From Streptomyces sp. NBC_00659 (GTDB taxonomy: Bacteria; Actinomycetota; Actinomycetes; Streptomycetales; Streptomycetaceae), in contig NZ_CP109031.1 of the NCBI RefSeq assembly GCF_036226925.1, forward strand, positions 2,294,001 to 2,358,000: a DNA stretch of 64,000 bases, in the 5' to 3' direction. Positions 2,465 through 13,102 of this stretch are shown here, piece after piece. The notes under the pieces are model-generated. The model searched no databases, was not told the origin of the DNA, and was given only the letters and a program-made list of their open reading frames with translations. Made by a program: the position numbers and the translations under genes. Position 1 is the stretch's first letter. Each line of letters opens with the position of its first letter.

Positions 2465-3493
2465 ATGATCGACGCACCCGCACCCCCTCCGGGCCGCCGC
2501 GGCGGCCGCTCAGGGGCGTTCCGTCACCTCAGGCTGCTCATCAGCGGTGTCTGCACCATGCTGCTCGTCGCCGTGGCCGCCATGACGCTGCCCGGCACCG
2601 CCCAGGCCGACACGGTCGTCACCTCGAACCAGACCGGCACCGACAACGGGTACTACTACTCGTTCTGGACCGACAGCAGCGGCACGGTGTCCATGAACCT
2701 GGGCTCCGGCGGCAACTACAGCACCTCGTGGAGCAACACCGGGAACTTCGTCGCCGGCAAGGGCTGGAGCAACGGCGGACGCAGGAGTGTGACCTACTCG
2801 GGCACCTTCAACCCGTCCGGCAACGCCTATCTGGCCCTCTACGGGTGGACGTCCAATCCGCTCGTCGAGTACTACATCGTCGACAACTGGGGCACCTACC
2901 GGCCCACGGGAACGTTCAAAGGCACGGTCACCAGCGACGGTGGCACGTACGACATCTACAGGACGACACGGACGAACGCGCCGTCCGTCGAGGGAACCCG
3001 CACCTTCGACCAGTACTGGAGCGTCCGGCAGTCGAAGCGGACGGGCGGGACCATCACCACCGGCAACCACTTCGACGCCTGGGCCCGCGCCGGAATGAGC
3101 CTGGGCAGCTTCAACTACTACATGATCCTCGCCACCGAGGGTTATCAGAGCAGCGGGAACTCCAACATCACGGTGGGCGACGCGGGATCGGGCGGCGGAA
3201 CCGGGGGCGGCTCCGGCGGCGGAACCGGCGGGTGCGCGGCGGCCCTGTCCGCGGGCCAGCAGTGGAACGACCGCTACAACCTCAACGTCGCCGTCACCGG
3301 ATCGAGCAACTGGACCGTGACGATGAACGTGCCCGCCCCGGCGAAGATCCTCTCGACCTGGAACATCAGCGCCAGTTACCCCAGCGCCCAGGTCCTGACG
3401 GCCAAACCCAACGGCAGCGGCAACACCTTCGGCGTCACCATCCAGACCAACGGCAACTGGACCTGGCCCACGGTCTCCTGCACCACGAGCTGA
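2465..3493 (+). CDS. xlnB: Secreted GH11 endo-1,4-beta-xylanase with CBM2 xylan-binding module
   Basis: A 342-residue extracellular xylanase that cuts internal beta-1,4 bonds of xylan. Order: a long signal peptide (R-rich start, hydrophobic LLVAVAAM, cleavage near AQA-DT at 48-49); the GH11 jelly roll (about 50-240) with nucleophile E135 in NPLVEYYIV and acid/base E225 in ILATEGYQS; a Gly/Ser/Thr linker; and a small CBM2 (from C257 to the end) with the conserved WNDRYN and final TWPTVSC Cys. This matches the architecture of S. lividans XlnB. GAGGAGG sits ten bases before the ATG. The esterase gene follows after 38 bases, so the two are probably co-transcribed and act together on acetylated xylan. 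Symbol by similarity. Confidence 0.95.
3233..3493 (+). repeat. CBM2 module, copy 1 of a direct repeat
   Basis: Nearly identical to 4279-4539, an offset of 1046 bases, from the first domain Cys codon through the stop codon. Long runs are base-for-base identical, including third positions. Confidence 0.9.
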
Positions 3494-3531
3494 GCCCTCC
3501 CCCCACCCCCGAGGCCGAAGGACCACTTCGC

Positions 3532-4539
3532 ATGACCTTCCGCACGAGAATCCGGACGGCGTCCGGACGACTTCGCTCGTTACGCTCGCTGATCACGGGG
3601 CTGGCCGTCGTCGCGACGGCCGTCGCGAGCCCCCTCGCCCTCGACGCCGGAGCCGCGCACGCCGCCACCTGCAACGGGTACGTCGGACTCACTTTCGACG
3701 ACGGGCCGTCCAGCACCACGTCGACCCTGCTCAACGCCCTCAAGCAGAACGGGCTGCGGGCCACGATGTTCAACGAGGGCCAGTACGCGGCGTCCAACCC
3801 CGCGCAGGTACGGGCCCAGGTCGACGCCGGCATGTGGGTGGGCAACCACAGCTACACCCACCCGCACCTCGTCCAGCAGAGCCAGGCGCAGATCGACTCG
3901 GAGATCTCCCGGACCCAGCAGGCCATCTCCGGCGCCGACGGCGGCACGCCGAAACTGTTCCGTCCGCCGTACGGAGAGACCAACACGACGGTGAAGGCGG
4001 TCGAGGCCAAGTACGGGCTGACCGAGATCATCTGGGACGTCGACTCGCAGGACTGGAACGGCGCGAGCACCGACGCGATCGTCCAGGCGGCCGGCCGGCT
4101 CACCAACGGCCAGATCATCCTCATGCACGACTGGCCGGCCAACACGATCGCCGCGATCCCGCGCATCGCGCAGGGACTGGCCGCCCGCGGCCTGTGCGCC
4201 GGGATGATCTCCCCGGGGACCGGCCGTGCCGTGGCACCCGACAGCGGCGGCTCAGGTGACGGCGGTGGCGGTGGCGGCTGCACCGCGACGCTGTCCGCGG
4301 GCCAGCAGTGGAGCGACCGCTACAACCTCAACGTCGCCGTCACCGGATCGAGCAACTGGACCGTGACGATGAACGTGCCCGCGCCCGAGAAGATCATCGC
4401 CACCTGGAACATCACGGCCGCCTACCCCAGTGCCCAGGTCCTGACGGCCAAACCCAACGGCAACGGCAACACCTTCGGCGTCACCGTTCAGACCAACGGC
4501 ACGTGGACGTGGCCGACGGTCTCCTGCACCACGAGCTGA
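3532..4539 (+). CDS. axeA: Secreted CE4 acetylxylan esterase with CBM2 module
   Basis: A 335-residue extracellular deacetylase, the same length as I recall for S. lividans AxeA. It removes O-acetyl groups from xylan so the neighbouring xylanase can act. Signal peptide ends near AHA-AT (44-45). The CE4 (NodB-like) fold shows TFDDGPS (metal/catalytic Asp pair, about 54-60), the metal His pair in [17 protein letters not shown], and the late ILMHDW histidine. A Gly/Ser linker precedes a CBM2 copy almost identical to the one in the xylanase. Start: ATG 3532 with GAAGGA nine bases before it. The same frame is open upstream across the xylanase gene but that part is antisense-like noise. A strong terminator follows. 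Confidence 0.95.
4279..4539 (+). repeat. CBM2 module, copy 2 of a direct repeat
   Basis: Partner of the copy at 3233-3493. Differences are few and cluster near the KII/KIL region and the start. This suggests recent duplication or gene conversion between the two xylanolytic genes. Confidence 0.9.
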
Positions 4540-4867: not shown

Positions 4868-7800
4868 ATGGCAGCCCTCCAGCAAGGCCCCGCAGTCGCG
4901 TTGTCCGACGACGAGGTGCGTGCGGAGTTCGGTGACCAGGCGCGCTTCTCCGCCGCGTCGGCCGCCTCGCCGCGCACGCTCGTCGACATCTTCGACGCCT
5001 CCGTACGGGCGTACCCCGACGAGCCCGCTCTCGACGACGGCCGGCGCGCCCTCACCTACCGCGCCCTGGCCGCCGAGGTCGAGGCCGTCCGGTGGCGGCT
5101 CGCGGAGGCCGGGGTCGGACTGGGTGACCGGGTCGGCGTGCGGGTCCCGTCCGGTACGAACGAGCTGTACGTGGCGATCCTCGCCGTCCTCGCGGCCGGG
5201 GCCGCCTATGTCCCGGTGGACGCCGAGGACCCGGACGAACGGGCCGAGCTGGTGTTCGGCGAGGCCGGCGTGCGGGCGGTCGTCGGCGCGGAGCTCGAGC
5301 TGACCGTCGACGGACGCTCGGAGATTCCCGCCGGGCGGCCCGGTGTCGAGCACGACGCGTGGATCATCTTCACCTCCGGTTCCACCGGCAGGCCCAAGGG
5401 CGTCGCCGTGAGCCACCGCAGCGCCGCCGCCTTCGTCGACGCGGAGGCCGACCTCTTCCTGACCGAGGAGCCGATCGGCCCCGGTGACCGGGTCATGGCG
5501 GGCCTCTCCGTCGCCTTCGACGCCTCCTGCGAGGAGATGTGGCTGGCATGGCGGTACGGGGCCTGTCTGGTGCCCGTACCGCGCTCACAGGTGCGCAGCG
5601 GCGCCGACCTCGGGCCCTGGCTGGCGGAGCAGGACATCTCCGTCGTCTCCACCGTGCCCACGCTCGCCGCCCTGTGGGAGCCGGAGACCCTCAACGACGT
5701 CCGGCTGCTGATCTTCGGCGGTGAGGCCTGCCCGCCCGAGCTGACGCAGCGCCTGGTGACCGAGGGCCGGGAGGTCTGGAACACGTACGGACCGACCGAG
5801 GCGACGGTCGTGGCCTGTGCCTCGCTGCTGACCGGCGACGAGCCCATCCGTATCGGGCTGCCGCTCAACGGCTGGGAGCTGGCGGTCGTCGACGAGGCCG
5901 GCGAGCTGGTGCCGATGGGCGGCACCGGCCAGCTGGTGATCGGCGGGGTCGGGCTCGCCCGCTACCTCGACGCCGAGAAGGACGCCGAGAAGTACGCGCC
6001 GCTCGCCTCGCTGGGCTGGGAGCGGGCGTACCGCAGCGGCGACCTGGTCACGGCCGAACCCGAGGGGCTGATCTTCCTCGGGCGGGCCGACGAGCAGATC
6101 AAGCTCGGCGGACGCCGCATCGAGCTCGGCGAGGTGGACGCGGCGCTCCAGGCGCTGCCCGGTGTCGCGGGGGCCGCCGCCGCCGTGCGGACCGCGCGCG
6201 GCGGCAATCAGCTCCTCGTCGGCTATGTCGTCACCCAGGACGGCTGGGACCAGGCGGCCGCCGTCGAGAAGCTGCGCGCCGAGCTGCCCGCAGCGCTGGT
6301 GCCGCTGATCGCGCCGGTCGAGGACCTGCCGACCCGGACGTCCGGCAAGGTCGACCGGAACGCGCTGCCCTGGCCGCTGGAGGGTCTGGAGACCGGTGGT
6401 GCCAAGGAGCAGCTGTACGGCACCGAGGCCTGGCTCGCCGAGCAGTGGAGCGAGGTGCTGGGCATCCCCGTCGGCGGAGCCGGCGACGACTTCTTCGCGA
6501 TCGGCGGCAGCAGTCTCGCGGCCGCCCAGCTCACCACGAAGCTGCGCGCCCGTTACCCGAACGCCGCCGTGCTCGACATCTATCAGCAGCCCGTGCTGCG
6601 CAAGCTGGCCCGGCATCTGGAGAAGTCCGGCCAGGACGACGGTGCCGAGCGGATCGTCGCGCCGGTCCCGCTGCGCGCCAAGCTGGTCCAGCTGCTCGTG
6701 CTGATCCCGCTGTTCAGCCTGCTCGGGCTGCGCTGGACGGTGGCGCTGGCCGCGCTCGGCAACGTACTGCACTGGTTCGGCCCGTATCCGTGGGCGCCGG
6801 GCACCTCGTGGTGGCTGGTGGGCGCCGGTGCGCTGGTTCTCTACAGCCCGCCGGGGCGGCTCGCCGTCGCGGCGGGCGGCGCGCGGCTGCTGCTGCGCGG
6901 TGTGAGGCCCGGACGGTACCCGCGCGGTGGGAGTGTCCATCTGCGGCTGTGGACGGCCGAGCGGCTCGCCGGTTTCAGCGGCGCGACCTCGCTGACCGGG
7001 TCCTGGCTGGAGCGGTACGCCCGTGCGCTGGGCGCCAGGGTCGGCCCGGACGTGGATCTGCACTCGCTGCCGCCGGTGACCGGCATGCTCAAGATGGGCC
7101 GGGGTGCCGCCGTCGGGTCCGAGGTGGACCTGTCGGGGTACTGGCTGGACGGCGACCGGCTGGAGATCGGCCCGGTGAAGGTGGGCGCCGGTGCCGTGGT
7201 CGGGACGCGCAGCATCCTCTTCCCGGGGGCCCGGGTGGGCAAGCACGCCGAGGTGGCGCCGGGCTCCGCAGTGGCGGGCCAGATTCCGACCGGGCAGCGC
7301 TGGGCCGGGGCGCCCGCGGTCAAGCTCGGCAAGGCGAAGCACGCGTGGCCCAAGGACCGGCCGCAGCGCGGCACGTACTGGCGGGTGATGTACGGCGCGA
7401 CCGGGCTCGCACTGAGCGCGCTGCCCGTGCTGGCCGCCGTCCCGGCGCTGCTGGTGGCCCGGGTGTTCGTGAGCGCGGACGCCGGGCTCGGTGCGGCGCT
7501 GCGCGGTGCCGGGATCGCCCTGGTGCCGGCGACGCTCGCGTTCGGTCTCGCGTACGCGCTGCTGCTCCTGATCGCCGTACGGCTGCTGAGTCTCGGGCTG
7601 GACGAGGGCACGCATCCCACGCACAGCCGGATCGGCTGGCAGGCCTGGACGGTCACGCAGTTGATGGACCTCTCCCGGGAGACGCTGTTCCCACTGTACG
7701 CGGGGCTGATCACGCCGGTGTGGCTGCGGCTGCTCGGCATGCGGATCGGCCGGGGCGCCGAGGTGTCGACCGTTCTCGCGCTGCCGAGTCTGACGACGGT

Positions 7801-8743
7801 CGGCGAGGGCGCGTTCCTCGCCGACGACACGCTGACGGCGCCGTACGAGCTCGGGGGCGGCTGGATGCGCATCGGGCGGGCCGAGATCGGCCGCCGGGCC
7901 TTCCTCGGCAATTCCGGGATGACCGCTCCCGGCCGCAGTGTGCCGGACGGCGGTCTGGTCGGTGTGCTGTCGGCGACGCCGAAGAAGGCGAAGAAGGGCA
8001 GCTCCTATCTGGGGCTGCCGCCGATGAAGCTGCCGCGTGCGGCGCAGGGCGGCGATCAGAGCCGTACCTACGACCCGCCCGCCCGGCTGCTGTGGGCGCG
8101 CGGTCTGGTGGAGCTGTGCCGGCTGGTGCCGGTGTTCTGTTCGGCGGCGCTGGCCGTGCTGACGGTCGCCGCGCTGTGTGCGCTGGGGCCGTGGGCGTGG
8201 GCGTTCTCGGGGGCCGTGCTGCTCGCGGTGGGCGTGCTCGCAGGCCTCGTCTCCATCGTGGCGAAGTGGCTGCTGGTGGGCCGGCACCGTGCCGGTGAGC
8301 ACCCGCTGTGGAGCGGTTTCGTGTGGCGCAACGAGCTGGCCGACACGTTCGTGGAGGTCGTCGCGGTGCCGTGGCTGGCGGGATCCGTGCCGGGTACTCC
8401 GCTGATGACGGCGTGGCTGCGCGGCCTGGGCGCCCGGATCGGCCGGGGCACGTGGGTCGAGAGCTACTGGCTGCCCGAGACGGACCTCGTGACGCTCGGG
8501 GACGCGGTCACGGTCAACCGGGGCTGTGTCCTGCAGACCCACCTCTTCCACGACCGGATCTTGCGGACGGATACTGTGGTCCTCCGTGAGGGCGCAACTT
8601 TGGGTCCGGGCGGAATCGTCCTGCCCGGCAGCACCGTCGGGGCCCGCTCCACTCTGGGTCCCGCGTCGCTCGTGATGGCGGCGGAGTCCGTTCCCGACGA
8701 CACCCGCTGGCTGGGCAATCCGATCGAGGCCTGGCGTTCGTAG
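4868..8743 (+). CDS. Pls/PosA-type NRPS (epsilon-poly-L-lysine synthetase-like)
   Basis: A 1291-residue single-module membrane NRPS with the architecture of epsilon-poly-lysine synthetase (about 1319 residues). N-terminal adenylation domain (about 40-530): FTSGSTGRPKG (168-178), FDASCEEMW, NTYGPTEA, GRADEQIKLGG and the catalytic Lys motif TSGKVDRN. Thiolation domain: DDFFAIGGSS, with S549 as the phosphopantetheine site. Then alternating membrane segments (about six) and three tandem acetyltransferase-like terminal domains with left-handed hexapeptide character (VGAGAVVGTRSILFPGARVG; GEGAFLADDTLT; LREGATLGPGGIVLPG). In this family those three domains join monomers iteratively through the side-chain amine. 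No condensation or thioesterase domain. The acidic E in FDASCEE is compatible with a basic amino acid substrate (inference). ATG 4868 has GAGGA just upstream. The product is unknown; a cationic homo-poly-amino acid is likely. Confidence 0.88.
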   Translation: MAALQQGPAVALSDDEVRAEFGDQARFSAASAASPRTLVDIFDASVRAYPDEPALDDGRRALTYRALAAEVEAVRWRLAEAGVGLGDRVGVRVPSGTNELYVAILAVLAAGAAYVPVDAEDPDERAELVFGEAGVRAVVGAELELTVDGRSEIPAGRPGVEHDAWIIFTSGSTGRPKGVAVSHRSAAAFVDAEADLFLTEEPIGPGDRVMAGLSVAFDASCEEMWLAWRYGACLVPVPRSQVRSGADLGPWLAEQDISVVSTVPTLAALWEPETLNDVRLLIFGGEACPPELTQRLVTEGREVWNTYGPTEATVVACASLLTGDEPIRIGLPLNGWELAVVDEAGELVPMGGTGQLVIGGVGLARYLDAEKDAEKYAPLASLGWERAYRSGDLVTAEPEGLIFLGRADEQIKLGGRRIELGEVDAALQALPGVAGAAAAVRTARGGNQLLVGYVVTQDGWDQAAAVEKLRAELPAALVPLIAPVEDLPTRTSGKVDRNALPWPLEGLETGGAKEQLYGTEAWLAEQWSEVLGIPVGGAGDDFFAIGGSSLAAAQLTTKLRARYPNAAVLDIYQQPVLRKLARHLEKSGQDDGAERIVAPVPLRAKLVQLLVLIPLFSLLGLRWTVALAALGNVLHWFGPYPWAPGTSWWLVGAGALVLYSPPGRLAVAAGGARLLLRGVRPGRYPRGGSVHLRLWTAERLAGFSGATSLTGSWLERYARALGARVGPDVDLHSLPPVTGMLKMGRGAAVGSEVDLSGYWLDGDRLEIGPVKVGAGAVVGTRSILFPGARVGKHAEVAPGSAVAGQIPTGQRWAGAPAVKLGKAKHAWPKDRPQRGTYWRVMYGATGLALSALPVLAAVPALLVARVFVSADAGLGAALRGAGIALVPATLAFGLAYALLLLIAVRLLSLGLDEGTHPTHSRIGWQAWTVTQLMDLSRETLFPLYAGLITPVWLRLLGMRIGRGAEVSTVLALPSLTTVGEGAFLADDTLTAPYELGGGWMRIGRAEIGRRAFLGNSGMTAPGRSVPDGGLVGVLSATPKKAKKGSSYLGLPPMKLPRAAQGGDQSRTYDPPARLLWARGLVELCRLVPVFCSAALAVLTVAALCALGPWAWAFSGAVLLAVGVLAGLVSIVAKWLLVGRHRAGEHPLWSGFVWRNELADTFVEVVAVPWLAGSVPGTPLMTAWLRGLGARIGRGTWVESYWLPETDLVTLGDAVTVNRGCVLQTHLFHDRILRTDTVVLREGATLGPGGIVLPGSTVGARSTLGPASLVMAAESVPDDTRWLGNPIEAWRS

Positions 8744-8816
8744 CAGACTTGACCTGATCGGACACGAAGGGCGGTACAGCGGCACGTCGAGCACAGGGCA
8801 GGGAGCAGTCGCAGCG

Positions 8817-10223
8817 GTGAGCGTTCAGCAGACAGCGGGACCGGACCCCTATTTCCCGGCGAACGGAGATCCCCGTTACCGGGTGCACCGGTACGAGCTG
8901 GCGCTGGACTACCGCCCCGGCCCGAACCGGCTCTCCGGCACCGCGCGGATCAACGCCATAGCGGGCCGTTCCGCGCTGCCCGAGTTCCAGCTGAACCTGG
9001 CGGACTTCCGGATCGGCCGGGTCCGTGTCGACGGCAAGGCCCCGCACTACACGCACCGGGGCGGCAGGCTGCGTATCCGTCCGCCGAAGCCGATACGGGC
9101 CGGCGCCGCCTTCACCGTCGAGGTGCACTGGTCGGGCAACCCCAAGCCGGTCAACAGCCCCTGGGGCGGGATCGGCTGGGAGGAGCTGGAGGACGGGGCG
9201 CTGGTGGCGAGCCAGCCGATCGGTTCGCCGTCCTGGTATCCGTGCAACGACCGGCCGGCCGACAAGGCCGCGTACCAGATCTCGGTCACCACGCCGTCCG
9301 CGTACGCGGTGGTGGCCGGCGGGCGTCTGCTGACGCGGACGACGAAGGCGTCGACGACCACCTGGGTGTACGAGCAGTCGGCGCCGACCTCCAGCTATCT
9401 GGTGGGCCTGTCGATAGGCAAGTACCAGACGGTGCTGCTCGGCGACCCGGGCCTCGGGGGCGTACCGCAGTCCGGGCACCTGCCCGCGCAGCTGCTCCCG
9501 GAGTTCTCCCGGGACTTCGCGCGGCAGCCCGCGATGATGGAGCTGTTCCAGGGCCTCTTCGGGCCGTATCCCTTCGGCGAGTACGCGGTGGTGGTGACCG
9601 AGGAGGAGCTCGACGTCCCGGTCGAGGCGCAGGGTCTGTCGCTGTTCGGCGCCAACCATCTGGACGGGTCGCGGGGTTCGGAGCGGCTGATCGCGCACGA
9701 GCTGGCGCACCAGTGGTTCGGCAACAGCGTGACGATCGCGGACTGGCGGCACATCTGGCTGAACGAGGGGCTCGCGAAGTACGCCGAGTGGCTGTGGTCG
9801 GAGCGCTCCGGCGGCCGCCCGGCGCGTCAGCTGGCCGCCGCCGCGCACCGGAAGCTGTCCACGCTGCCGCAGGATCTGCTGCTGTCCGACCCGGGCCGCA
9901 AGCTGATGTTCGACGACCGGCTCTACGAGCGCGGCGGGCTCACCGTGCACGCGATCCGCTGCGCGATGGGCGACGAGGCCTTCTTCCGCATGCTGCGCGG
10001 CTGGGCGACGCTGCACCGGGGCGGCACGGTCACCACGTCCGTCTTCACCGCGCACGTCTCGCGCTACGCGGCCGAGCCGCTGGACGAGCTCTTCACGGCG
10101 TGGCTGTACGAGACGGCGCTGCCACCGTTGCCGGAGGCGGCCCCGCAGTTTCCCGCCCGGCCCGCCCATCCGCCGACCTTTCCGCCCCCGAGCACGGACC
10201 CGGCCCGGGTCCGGGGAGAATGA
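8817..10223 (+). CDS. M1 family zinc metallopeptidase
   Basis: A 468-residue gluzincin of the M1 aminopeptidase family. The zinc site is complete: HELAHQW (H294, E295, H298), then E317 in WLNEG exactly 18 residues on. The usual GAMEN exopeptidase motif is altered to VEAQG within VPVEAQGLSLFG. The protein is about half the length of full M1 enzymes, keeping the N-terminal beta domain and the catalytic domain but lacking the large C-terminal helical domain. No signal peptide is evident. GTG start, 73 bases after the Pls-like gene. Known epsilon-poly-lysine producers make membrane-associated zinc aminopeptidases that degrade the polymer; a matching role here is inference from position. Confidence 0.87.
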   Translation: MSVQQTAGPDPYFPANGDPRYRVHRYELALDYRPGPNRLSGTARINAIAGRSALPEFQLNLADFRIGRVRVDGKAPHYTHRGGRLRIRPPKPIRAGAAFTVEVHWSGNPKPVNSPWGGIGWEELEDGALVASQPIGSPSWYPCNDRPADKAAYQISVTTPSAYAVVAGGRLLTRTTKASTTTWVYEQSAPTSSYLVGLSIGKYQTVLLGDPGLGGVPQSGHLPAQLLPEFSRDFARQPAMMELFQGLFGPYPFGEYAVVVTEEELDVPVEAQGLSLFGANHLDGSRGSERLIAHELAHQWFGNSVTIADWRHIWLNEGLAKYAEWLWSERSGGRPARQLAAAAHRKLSTLPQDLLLSDPGRKLMFDDRLYERGGLTVHAIRCAMGDEAFFRMLRGWATLHRGGTVTTSVFTAHVSRYAAEPLDELFTAWLYETALPPLPEAAPQFPARPAHPPTFPPPSTDPARVRGE

Positions 10224-10227
10224 CGCG

Positions 10228-10602
10228 ATGACCAGCCGTTCCTGTCCCTGCGGGCTCGCCGAGCCGTACGCGCGCTGCTGCGGGCGCTTCCATCGCGGTG
10301 AGGCCGCGGCGCCGAGCGCCGAGGCGCTGATGCGGTCGCGTTACTGCGCCTTCGTCAAGGAGGACGAGGGGTATCTGCTGGTGACCTGGCATCCGCGGAC
10401 GCGGCCGGCCCGGGTGGACTTCGATCCCGGGATGCGGTGGACCGGCCTGGAGATCCTGGACACGGGTCAGGGTTCGGCGTTCCACACCACGGGGACCGTG
10501 ACCTTCCGGGCCTCCTACCGGGGCGGTTCGCTGCACGAGCGGAGCCGGTTCGAGCGGGTGGACGGGGCCTGGGTGTACGTGGACGGGGAGTTCCTCGACT
10601 GA
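10228..10602 (+). CDS. YchJ family protein with N-terminal SEC-C zinc motif
   Basis: A 124-residue protein. It starts with a SEC-C type zinc site, SCPCGLAEPYARCCGRFH (C6, C8, C17/C18, H22), followed by the YchJ NTF2-like domain (MRSRYCAFV..., TVTFRASYRGG, FERVDGAWVYVDG). Function is unknown; SEC-C motifs often mediate protein or ribosome/SecA-type contacts. It starts five bases after the peptidase stop and is probably co-transcribed with it. Convergent with the GntR regulator downstream. Confidence 0.88.
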   Translation: MTSRSCPCGLAEPYARCCGRFHRGEAAAPSAEALMRSRYCAFVKEDEGYLLVTWHPRTRPARVDFDPGMRWTGLEILDTGQGSAFHTTGTVTFRASYRGGSLHERSRFERVDGAWVYVDGEFLD

Positions 10603-11384: not shown

Positions 11385-11560
11385 ATACTCTTGAATTCGT
11401 CGTACCTAATGCGTTTCAGTATCGTCGGTATCAGATGTCGACGAAGACGCGATGCAGCACAGTCCCACCGTTCCTATGGGCTGAGCGGGAGTGAGTCCTG
11501 TTGCCAGAACCCATGCTCAGTCGAACGCCCCGGACGGTGTTGGGCGTTCTGGTTGCCCGT
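11385..11560 (-). ncRNA. Candidate TnpB guide (omega) RNA region and element right end
   Basis: In tnpB elements the guide RNA overlaps the 3' end of tnpB and runs past its stop to the element end. Here, on the minus strand, the stop codon (11476-11474) lies inside a hairpin: CAG-C-CCCA type arms at 11460-11483 (CAGCCCA, loop TAGGAACGG, TGGGACTG). The exact 3' boundary cannot be fixed from one copy. Coordinates are approximate. Confidence 0.3.
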
Positions 11561-13102
11561 GTTCGCTCCGCGTCCGGGCGGCACGGATCGTGTCCGTGGT
11601 CCGGGAATGCGGGGGCGGGGTCCCTCACGCCGTGGAGTGTCCGGTTCGGCCTGGACGGTCCGATGCCCGTGCCCATCGCTCTGGTGGGTACGGGGCGGTG
11701 CCGTCCGACGCCTGATCGGATGCCCCAGGGCGCGCCTTCCGATGGCCACGGCGGCAGCGTCGTGGCGGGTGGTGGTGCGTCTGCTGGTGGTGAGGGGTTT
11801 CTGCCAGTGCTGGGCGCCCCAGCGGGAGGTGTAGGCGGGATCGACCGCGACCAGCGGGATGCCGAGTTCGGTGGCCATGGACACCAGGCGGGCGCGCAGC
11901 CGGGCGACGGGCATGCCGGAGATCAGCTTGCGGAAGTGTTTGCGGTGGCCGTGTTTCTCCCGGCTGGTCTCGGCGGTGAAGTCGAGGTCTTCGACGGCGA
12001 TCGCGAGGTGGTGCCGTCTGACCCAGTGCAGGAGGCGGGTGAGGGCGTGGCGTACCTGGGCGTCGCGGTGCTGTGTGGTGCCGGACAGGATGTAGTCGAA
12101 GCGGCACGGGGCGCCGACCGGGTTGCCATGCTGGTCCAACCGCCAGGCCGCCAGGTGATCGGCGTTGGTGTCCACGCCGATCAGGCCACCGGCCCGCACA
12201 GCCGCCAGGGGCACGTTGGGGACAGGTGGGATGGTCCAGGAAGCGGTCAAATACCAGCGGGCTCGGCCGGTGTCCTCGTGGATGCGGTAGGCCACTGCCC
12301 GGTTGGCGTGGACGCGGTCGCGCCATGTCTCGCCCCGGTGGGCGAACGACACCCGCGCGGTGAAGACGTAGCGGCCGTGCGGGGCGTTGGCGAGATGGGC
12401 AAGCGGGGCCGGGAGCCGGATGCTGACCTGCCCGTCGGGGTTGACCCGGAGGGTCTCGTTGCCGTACCGCTTGCCGGACTCGCCGTCCGCCTGCAAAAAC
12501 CGGCGTGCCGCCTCCCACCGGGCTCGCCATACCGGCTCGGTAAGCTGGGCCTGTTCCAGATGGTGGCGAGAATTGAGCAGTCGTTTCCCGCCCCGCACCA
12601 CCCGCACCCGACCGGCCGCCCAGTCGGCCCGCGCCCGCTCCAGCCGGTCCTCCAGCACCCGCAGCCGACGCGCCTTGGCGTGCCACTCCCGCCGACTCCG
12701 GTAACCACCACCAGCGCGCCTCGAACCCTTCCCTCCGAGGGGGAGCGACAGCCGGTGCCGGATCGTCCGCACGCCGGTTTCCAACTGCTGAATATGCGCC
12801 TGCTGGCTACGCCTGGCCAGCGCCCACTGATCATGCGCGGCCTTCGTCAGCGACCCCGCCCACCGTGACGACGACTCCTCCGTCAGGACACGCTTACGCG
12901 ACGCCCACCCCTCGTTGTCGTGCTTCAGACCGGCCGTACACCGTGCTTTGAGATCCCGGGACGCCAGCGAACCCAGGTGGTCGCCGACCAGCTGCAGCAC
13001 CGACTCGTCCTCGACGGTGAGGCCCTTGAGCCGATCCCGGACCGCGACACCCGACGGACCGGGCACCACGAACGATGCCCCCACCACCCGCAACCCACTC
13101 AC
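11474..13102 (-). CDS. TnpB-related RNA-guided nuclease lacking the zinc finger
   Basis: A 542-residue protein of the IS200/IS605 TnpB-related group. The RuvC triad is intact: D311 (IGVDTNADH), E371 (IAVEDLDF) and D448 (TTTRHDAAAVA); the conserved YTS (425-427) is also present. The CxxC...CxxC zinc ribbon normally between the second and third RuvC motifs is absent: after C333 there is no cysteine at all, and the place is taken by SRWGAQHWQ. The N-terminal half is Arg-rich and helical, consistent with RNA binding; a roughly 80-residue Pro/Arg-rich tail ends the protein. GTG start with GGGGGTGA upstream. No tnpA or serine recombinase is beside it. It sits between the gluconate regulator and gluconokinase. 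It could be a domesticated or trans-mobilised element. Confidence 0.88.
   Translation of the reverse strand: MSGLRVVGASFVVPGPSGVAVRDRLKGLTVEDESVLQLVGDHLGSLASRDLKARCTAGLKHDNEGWASRKRVLTEESSSRWAGSLTKAAHDQWALARRSQQAHIQQLETGVRTIRHRLSLPLGGKGSRRAGGGYRSRREWHAKARRLRVLEDRLERARADWAAGRVRVVRGGKRLLNSRHHLEQAQLTEPVWRARWEAARRFLQADGESGKRYGNETLRVNPDGQVSIRLPAPLAHLANAPHGRYVFTARVSFAHRGETWRDRVHANRAVAYRIHEDTGRARWYLTASWTIPPVPNVPLAAVRAGGLIGVDTNADHLAAWRLDQHGNPVGAPCRFDYILSGTTQHRDAQVRHALTRLLHWVRRHHLAIAVEDLDFTAETSREKHGHRKHFRKLISGMPVARLRARLVSMATELGIPLVAVDPAYTSRWGAQHWQKPLTTSRRTTTRHDAAAVAIGRRALGHPIRRRTAPPRTHQSDGHGHRTVQAEPDTPRREGPRPRIPGPRTRSVPPGRGANTGNQNAQHRPGRSTEHGFWQQDSLPLSP

Follow-up and report, generated by a model that had tools for sequence, protein, structure and literature searches.

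What does a single-module synthetase with a zinc peptidase encoded directly behind it make, and where in the cell would the peptidase act? The question is raised by a locus of Streptomyces sp. NBC_00659, whose 9.66-Mb genome is a single contig; the stretch analyzed here, 64,000 nucleotides long, is called the window. Three open reading frames follow one another there on the plus strand. The first (4868..8743, +) encodes Pls, a 1,291-aa NRPS-like enzyme of the epsilon-poly-L-lysine (epsilon-PL) synthetase type, and the second (8817..10223, +; GTG start) a short M1 zinc metallopeptidase of 468 aa, which is of the PldII type by homology to protein P0029 and by a tree, and in which hydropathy showed no leader. 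The third (10228..10602, +) encodes a 124-aa YchJ-like protein (Pfam PF17775). A spacer of 73 bases (8744..8816, +) separates pls from the peptidase gene, and 4 bases separate the latter from the YchJ-like gene; the list of open reading frames thus reproduces the frames, gene order, and 73-base gap given in the initial annotation. For substrate, polymer, activity, and location taken jointly, we infer with considerable confidence a pls-pldII type operon, in which an epsilon-PL synthetase is paired with an epsilon-PL-cutting zinc peptidase that is most likely cytoplasmic.

According to this proposal, Pls would activate L-lysine with ATP, as its identical binding pocket predicts, and load it on its own carrier domain. 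By the mechanism of the characterized S. albulus enzyme, the membrane part would then join the monomers via the epsilon-amino group into epsilon-PL, to be released outside. The adjoining gene encodes a PldII-clade zinc peptidase, which would by homology cut this polymer and, being apparently leaderless, would most likely do so in the cytoplasm; its task would be to clear retained or returning polymer and regain the lysine, not to shorten what has been secreted.

The architecture of Pls agrees with the synthetase part of this proposal. An adenylation (A) domain (residues 23 to 505; 4934..6382, +; alignment with PDB entry 7wew) is followed by a carrier (thiolation, T) domain with a GGSS motif (residues 522 to 584; 6431..6619, +; PF00550, 38.8 bits) and by a membrane terminal domain of the Pls/PosA type (residues 607 to 1286; 6686..8725, +), delimited by hydropathy and by the TIGR02353 match, which scores 859.5 bits against an NCBIfam cut-off of 423.1. 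Pfam reports AMP-binding, PP-binding, AMP-binding_C (24.1 bits, just below the cut-off of 24.5), and Hexapep; at 1e-3 it detects neither a condensation nor a thioesterase family in Pls. Hydrophobic stretches lie near residues 595 to 631, 840 to 915, and 1079 to 1139, as judged by hydropathy, a rough guide that also flags residues 97 to 120 inside the soluble A-domain. No second full Pls is encoded in the genome, where three further TIGR02353 matches score 21.9 to 26.7 bits. The single-module A-T-membrane enzyme without condensation or thioesterase domain that the initial annotation described is therefore confirmed by TIGR02353, Pfam, and hydropathy, and with this Pls architecture a cationic isopeptide homopolymer is the most likely product.

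We compared the locus with named relatives (the best 80 of 567 confirmed loci, which lean to close relatives), with a sample of 150 genomes of the genus, with a class sample, and with further loci of the genus. TIGR02353 matches occur in 81 of the 150 genus genomes and in 59 of 246 class genomes. Twelve named loci repeat loci of the sampled sets, and L009 repeats the window; counts of distinct loci exclude repeats. The genus sample gave 117 TIGR02353 rows, 53 of them with frames of only 812 to 1,144 aa, of which 13 were taken in, and left out two partial rows (genome G139); the class search excluded G200 and G230, the partial matches in G151, and additional short frames from genomes of the genus. 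In the short-frame rows the Pls/PosA terminal domain is present (e.g., L028:1417-4140 and L156:3942-7154), and Pfam scans of two of them, one adjoining a separate A-T-TE module, revealed no adenylation domain beside the carrier and hexapeptide parts. In L166 (G140), where either the gene is broken or the sequence contains an error, pls is split into two open frames of 447 and 1,272 aa, and the locus was counted with its A-domain part. Five loci have no typed pocket: L019, L028, L030 (no A-domain), L125 (contig end), and L116 (multi-module frame). Where the pocket could be aligned, it reads exactly as in the window, DAESIGTVVK (Lys code), in 181 loci and carries a DFE code in eight.

The initial annotation had described the peptidase as an M1 enzyme with an intact zinc site but without its C-terminal domain and with VEAQG in place of GAMEN. 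The zinc site HELAHQ...E (H294, H298, and E317; 9696..9767, +; by alignment) is indeed intact, and Y370 presumably plays the role of the M1 tyrosine. The zinc ligands are complete in all 181 linked M1s, 177 of which are linked to Lys-code and 4 to DFE-code synthetases. The C-terminal domain is missing when the enzyme is compared with those of the PepN type, but this is no oddity, since the enzyme aligns over residues 8 to 441 with the 474-aa M1 structures of Deinococcus (6a8z and 6iff), its best solved relatives, and thus has the ordinary short form; the idea of a truncated peptidase was rejected on this basis. The motif VEAQG (residues 269 to 273; 9621..9635, +; by alignment) does stand at the GAMEN site. 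It was likewise dismissed as an unusual change, because its Glu is kept in 181/181 linked M1s, ExQ occurs in 177 of them (the exceptions are L084, L092, L218, and L228), and all four further short M1s tested from the same genome carry LETQT or LEVQS. In that genome, which has 11 M1 matches (three further short ones stand outside the motif comparison), GAMEN is present in three M1s of 854 to 868 aa. The Deinococcus enzymes carry LETAG by our reading of the alignment, as against VEAQG in the window.

The peptidase is 45% identical to P0029 of S. noursei, which we take to be the S. albulus PldII because it carries each of the six PldII residues given numbers in PMC9223678, a match made by only 3 of 120 candidates (the others being P0024 and P0056). 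The same paper models two PldII zinc ions at D44/T45 and D173/K174; the P0029 sequence has a HEXXH..E site elsewhere. In a tree of 58 sequences, made by a quick method without bootstrap and holding 51 of the 177 Lys-linked M1s, hand-picked for spread, these 51 and P0029 form one clade (node value 100) that excludes four further short M1s from the window's genome. Together with the presence of a PldII-type M1 gene beside pls, the tree upholds the earlier view that the peptidase belongs with the polymer-degrading PldII. The clade splits in two, one branch holding 6 rows with a Tat leader (node value 100) and the other 46 rows without one (97), and the leader label switches once over the 58 rows, which suggests a single loss of the leader if the tree is rooted on exported paralogs, the count of changes itself having no direction.

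To call a leader, hydropathy was averaged in stretches of 14 residues along the in-frame peptide that precedes the peptidase domain, with a cut-off of 1.4 that was chosen after the values had been seen. This peptide peaks at 0.71 in the window, and hydropathy revealed no hydrophobic stretch in frame upstream of the GTG start. Likewise, 172 of the 177 Lys-linked M1s (160/165 without repeats) fall below the cut-off, six of the Lys-linked M1s lying near it, at 1.0 to 1.34. Among the other short M1s of the genome, used as a control, four of seven reach 2.17 to 2.67 in their first 110 residues. The measure is not sharp, since over the same length the long PepN-type L168, expected to be cytoplasmic, reaches 1.52 (the other two long M1s reach 1.33 and 1.01), and the absence of a leader is therefore to be read as a rough call from hydropathy and start-codon choice. 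P0029 begins with a Tat-like leader, as do the M1s of five S. albulus-type loci (L119 to L123), in contrast to the window's peptidase. The S. virginiae pair (L089) is of the leaderless kind, at 0.15; its strain is, we assume, the S. virginiae strain assayed, and the activity of that strain may come from an enzyme other than the L089 peptidase. Among the papers listed on PldII and degradation, no report of the leaderless type was found, a listing too limited to establish the type as new.

Because an export signal is undetectable here, as in most related loci examined, the peptidase would most likely act in the cytoplasm, and the usual partner peptidase may, to judge from the sequences, act inside the cell. 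An exported enzyme working on the cell surface, where PldII activity is reported in S. albulus (PMC9205021), would have to use a non-classical route or an upstream start that was missed; it has a parallel in the hydrophobic N termini of four other short M1s of the genome. Two observations make it unlikely: the in-frame peptide ahead of the domain holds no hydrophobic stretch, and in many of the relatives inspected no more than about 40 bases lie between the pls stop and the domain. A second alternative is that the peptidase trims the nascent polymer and so sets its chain length, a role on which two papers disagree. Whereas repression of pldII in S. albulus gave longer chains and a shifted mass distribution (PMC9223678), production and polymer length are stated to stay the same when Pld and PldII are inactivated, the length being set by Pls itself (PMC8506220), and we regard such control as improbable in the window. 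A cytoplasmic peptidase that clears and recycles polymer inside the cell is our preferred reading.

The initial annotation had further expected an undescribed polymer and had proposed comparing the A-domain pocket with those of characterized enzymes. The best solved relative of the synthetase is 7wew, the S. albulus epsilon-poly-L-lysine synthetase (649.6 bits; 399.6 for the next chain), with 322 of 480 A-domain residues identical. Pocket residues 218, 219, 222, 261, 282, 284, 306, 314, 315, and 494, which we took as the Stachelhaus positions on the basis of the GrsA motifs, read DAESIGTVVK and equal those of 7wew at 10/10 positions in the alignment. The window's Pls also shares 1,024 of 1,279 aligned residues (80%) with the K. 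kifunensis Pls (P0135), and we note no difference between these two synthetases; epsilon-PL production is reported for this species, spelled Kitasatospora kifunense, in PMC8506220. Because the pocket is that of 7wew and Pls is so close to that of a reported producer species, the enzyme is predicted to activate L-lysine, and its product is probably epsilon-poly-L-lysine, a known polymer.

Family members with other substrates do exist, and according to PMC10522769 pocket Asp 1 and Glu 3 are conserved, while position 2 is Ala in the Lys type, Met in the Orn type, Phe in the Dap and Dab types, and Gly in the beta-lysine type. The window has Ala219 at position 2, and thus neither the Met nor the Phe of PosA or the Dap/Dab synthetases. 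PosA, the delta-poly-L-ornithine synthetase of Acinetobacter baumannii, belongs to the same family with the same domain layout, but it has the pocket DMEHNGTVSK and a single-gene operon (PMC10522769). The eight DFE-code loci are only 37 to 41% identical to the A-domain of 7wew. Although prediction of substrates from pocket codes is imperfect, it is thus very unlikely that the synthetase joins a different basic amino acid into an undescribed isopeptide polymer. The undescribed polymer was rejected on the pocket comparison, and the pls-pldII operon of S. albulus is itself already described (PMC4361855 and PMC8117764).

That operon has the same two genes in the same order as the window, with the same pocket and architecture, and S. 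albulus-type Pls proteins (L119 to L123) are 55 to 58% identical to the window's. It differs in that pldII overlaps pls by 4 bp (PMC4361855), whereas the window has its 73-base spacer. In the Kitasatospora loci L058 and L070, an M1 gene follows pls and no leader was found, as in the window. Counting an M1 gene as paired when it lies at most 400 bases downstream of pls on the same strand, we found the pair in 177 of the 181 Lys-code loci (165/169 without repeats), from several actinobacterial families: 80/80 named loci (best 80 of 567), 55/56 in the genus sample, 36/38 among class-sample loci from other genera, and 6/7 among additional loci of the genus, or 97/101 in the sampled sets alone without repeats. 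Since four Lys-code loci (L115, L209, L226, and L240) lack an adjoining M1, the peptidase is not indispensable. In two of these, a 4'-phosphopantetheinyl transferase gene takes the peptidase's place directly after pls (L226:4734-5513), and a convergent M20 peptidase gene adjoins an S. albulus-type pls (L115:4863-6101).

The conservation of the pair across actinobacteria excludes chance for the locus observed, and even with 11 M1 matches in the genome, an unrelated housekeeping aminopeptidase lying beside pls by accident is hardly credible against pairing in nearly all Lys-code loci and the separate clade of the Lys-linked M1s. Among DFE-code loci, no M1 was found nearby in the three from the genus, and four of the five from the class sample (L242 to L245) have one about 950 bases downstream, with a Sec-like N terminus and, for the two placed in the tree (L242 and L244), in an M1 branch other than that of PldII. 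The L242 enzyme is 51% identical to L172, a paralog in the window's genome, versus 36 to 38% to the window's M1, and the gene between pls and the M1 gene in L242 matches BPL_N.

The closest named loci (best 80 of 567) are those of Streptomyces aureus NRRL B-1941 (94% in the best segment) and S. populi (93%), and a YchJ gene lies downstream in only 24 of the 80 named relatives, 3 to 3,794 bases from the M1 gene; of the 56 without it, two have less than 2 kb of sequence to search. YchJ, which the initial annotation had placed in the locus, was accordingly rejected as a third component and is probably a neighbor by local synteny. Elsewhere in the window, a GH11 xylanase and a polysaccharide deacetylase (2465-3493 and 3520-4539; Pfam) have almost identical C-terminal tails of about 85 residues, which by their sequence are likely a binding module common to both. 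A 542-aa frame at 11474-13102 on the minus strand looks like a TnpB-type protein by eye, and Pfam gave no match to it at 1e-3.

The locus is thus an ordinary member of a known synthetase-peptidase gene pair, and epsilon-PL, with 730 cases, ranks with the known clusters that recur most often in a pangenome study of Streptomyces (PMC11734326). The leaderless peptidase is its one unexpected point. That most actinobacterial epsilon-PL operons have a cytoplasmic, leaderless peptidase, the exported S. albulus PldII being a minority form, is a proposition on which we stand evenly divided. The mechanism by which producers protect themselves is called largely unknown in the review PMC9205021, and no description of intracellular clearance as self-protection in epsilon-PL producers was found in the literature searched. 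If the leaderless partner is indeed cytoplasmic, its usual role would be the clearance and recycling of intracellular polymer, a route of self-protection. The difference in leader therefore bears on how producers survive their own polycation, and locating the leaderless peptidase would make one answer directly testable.
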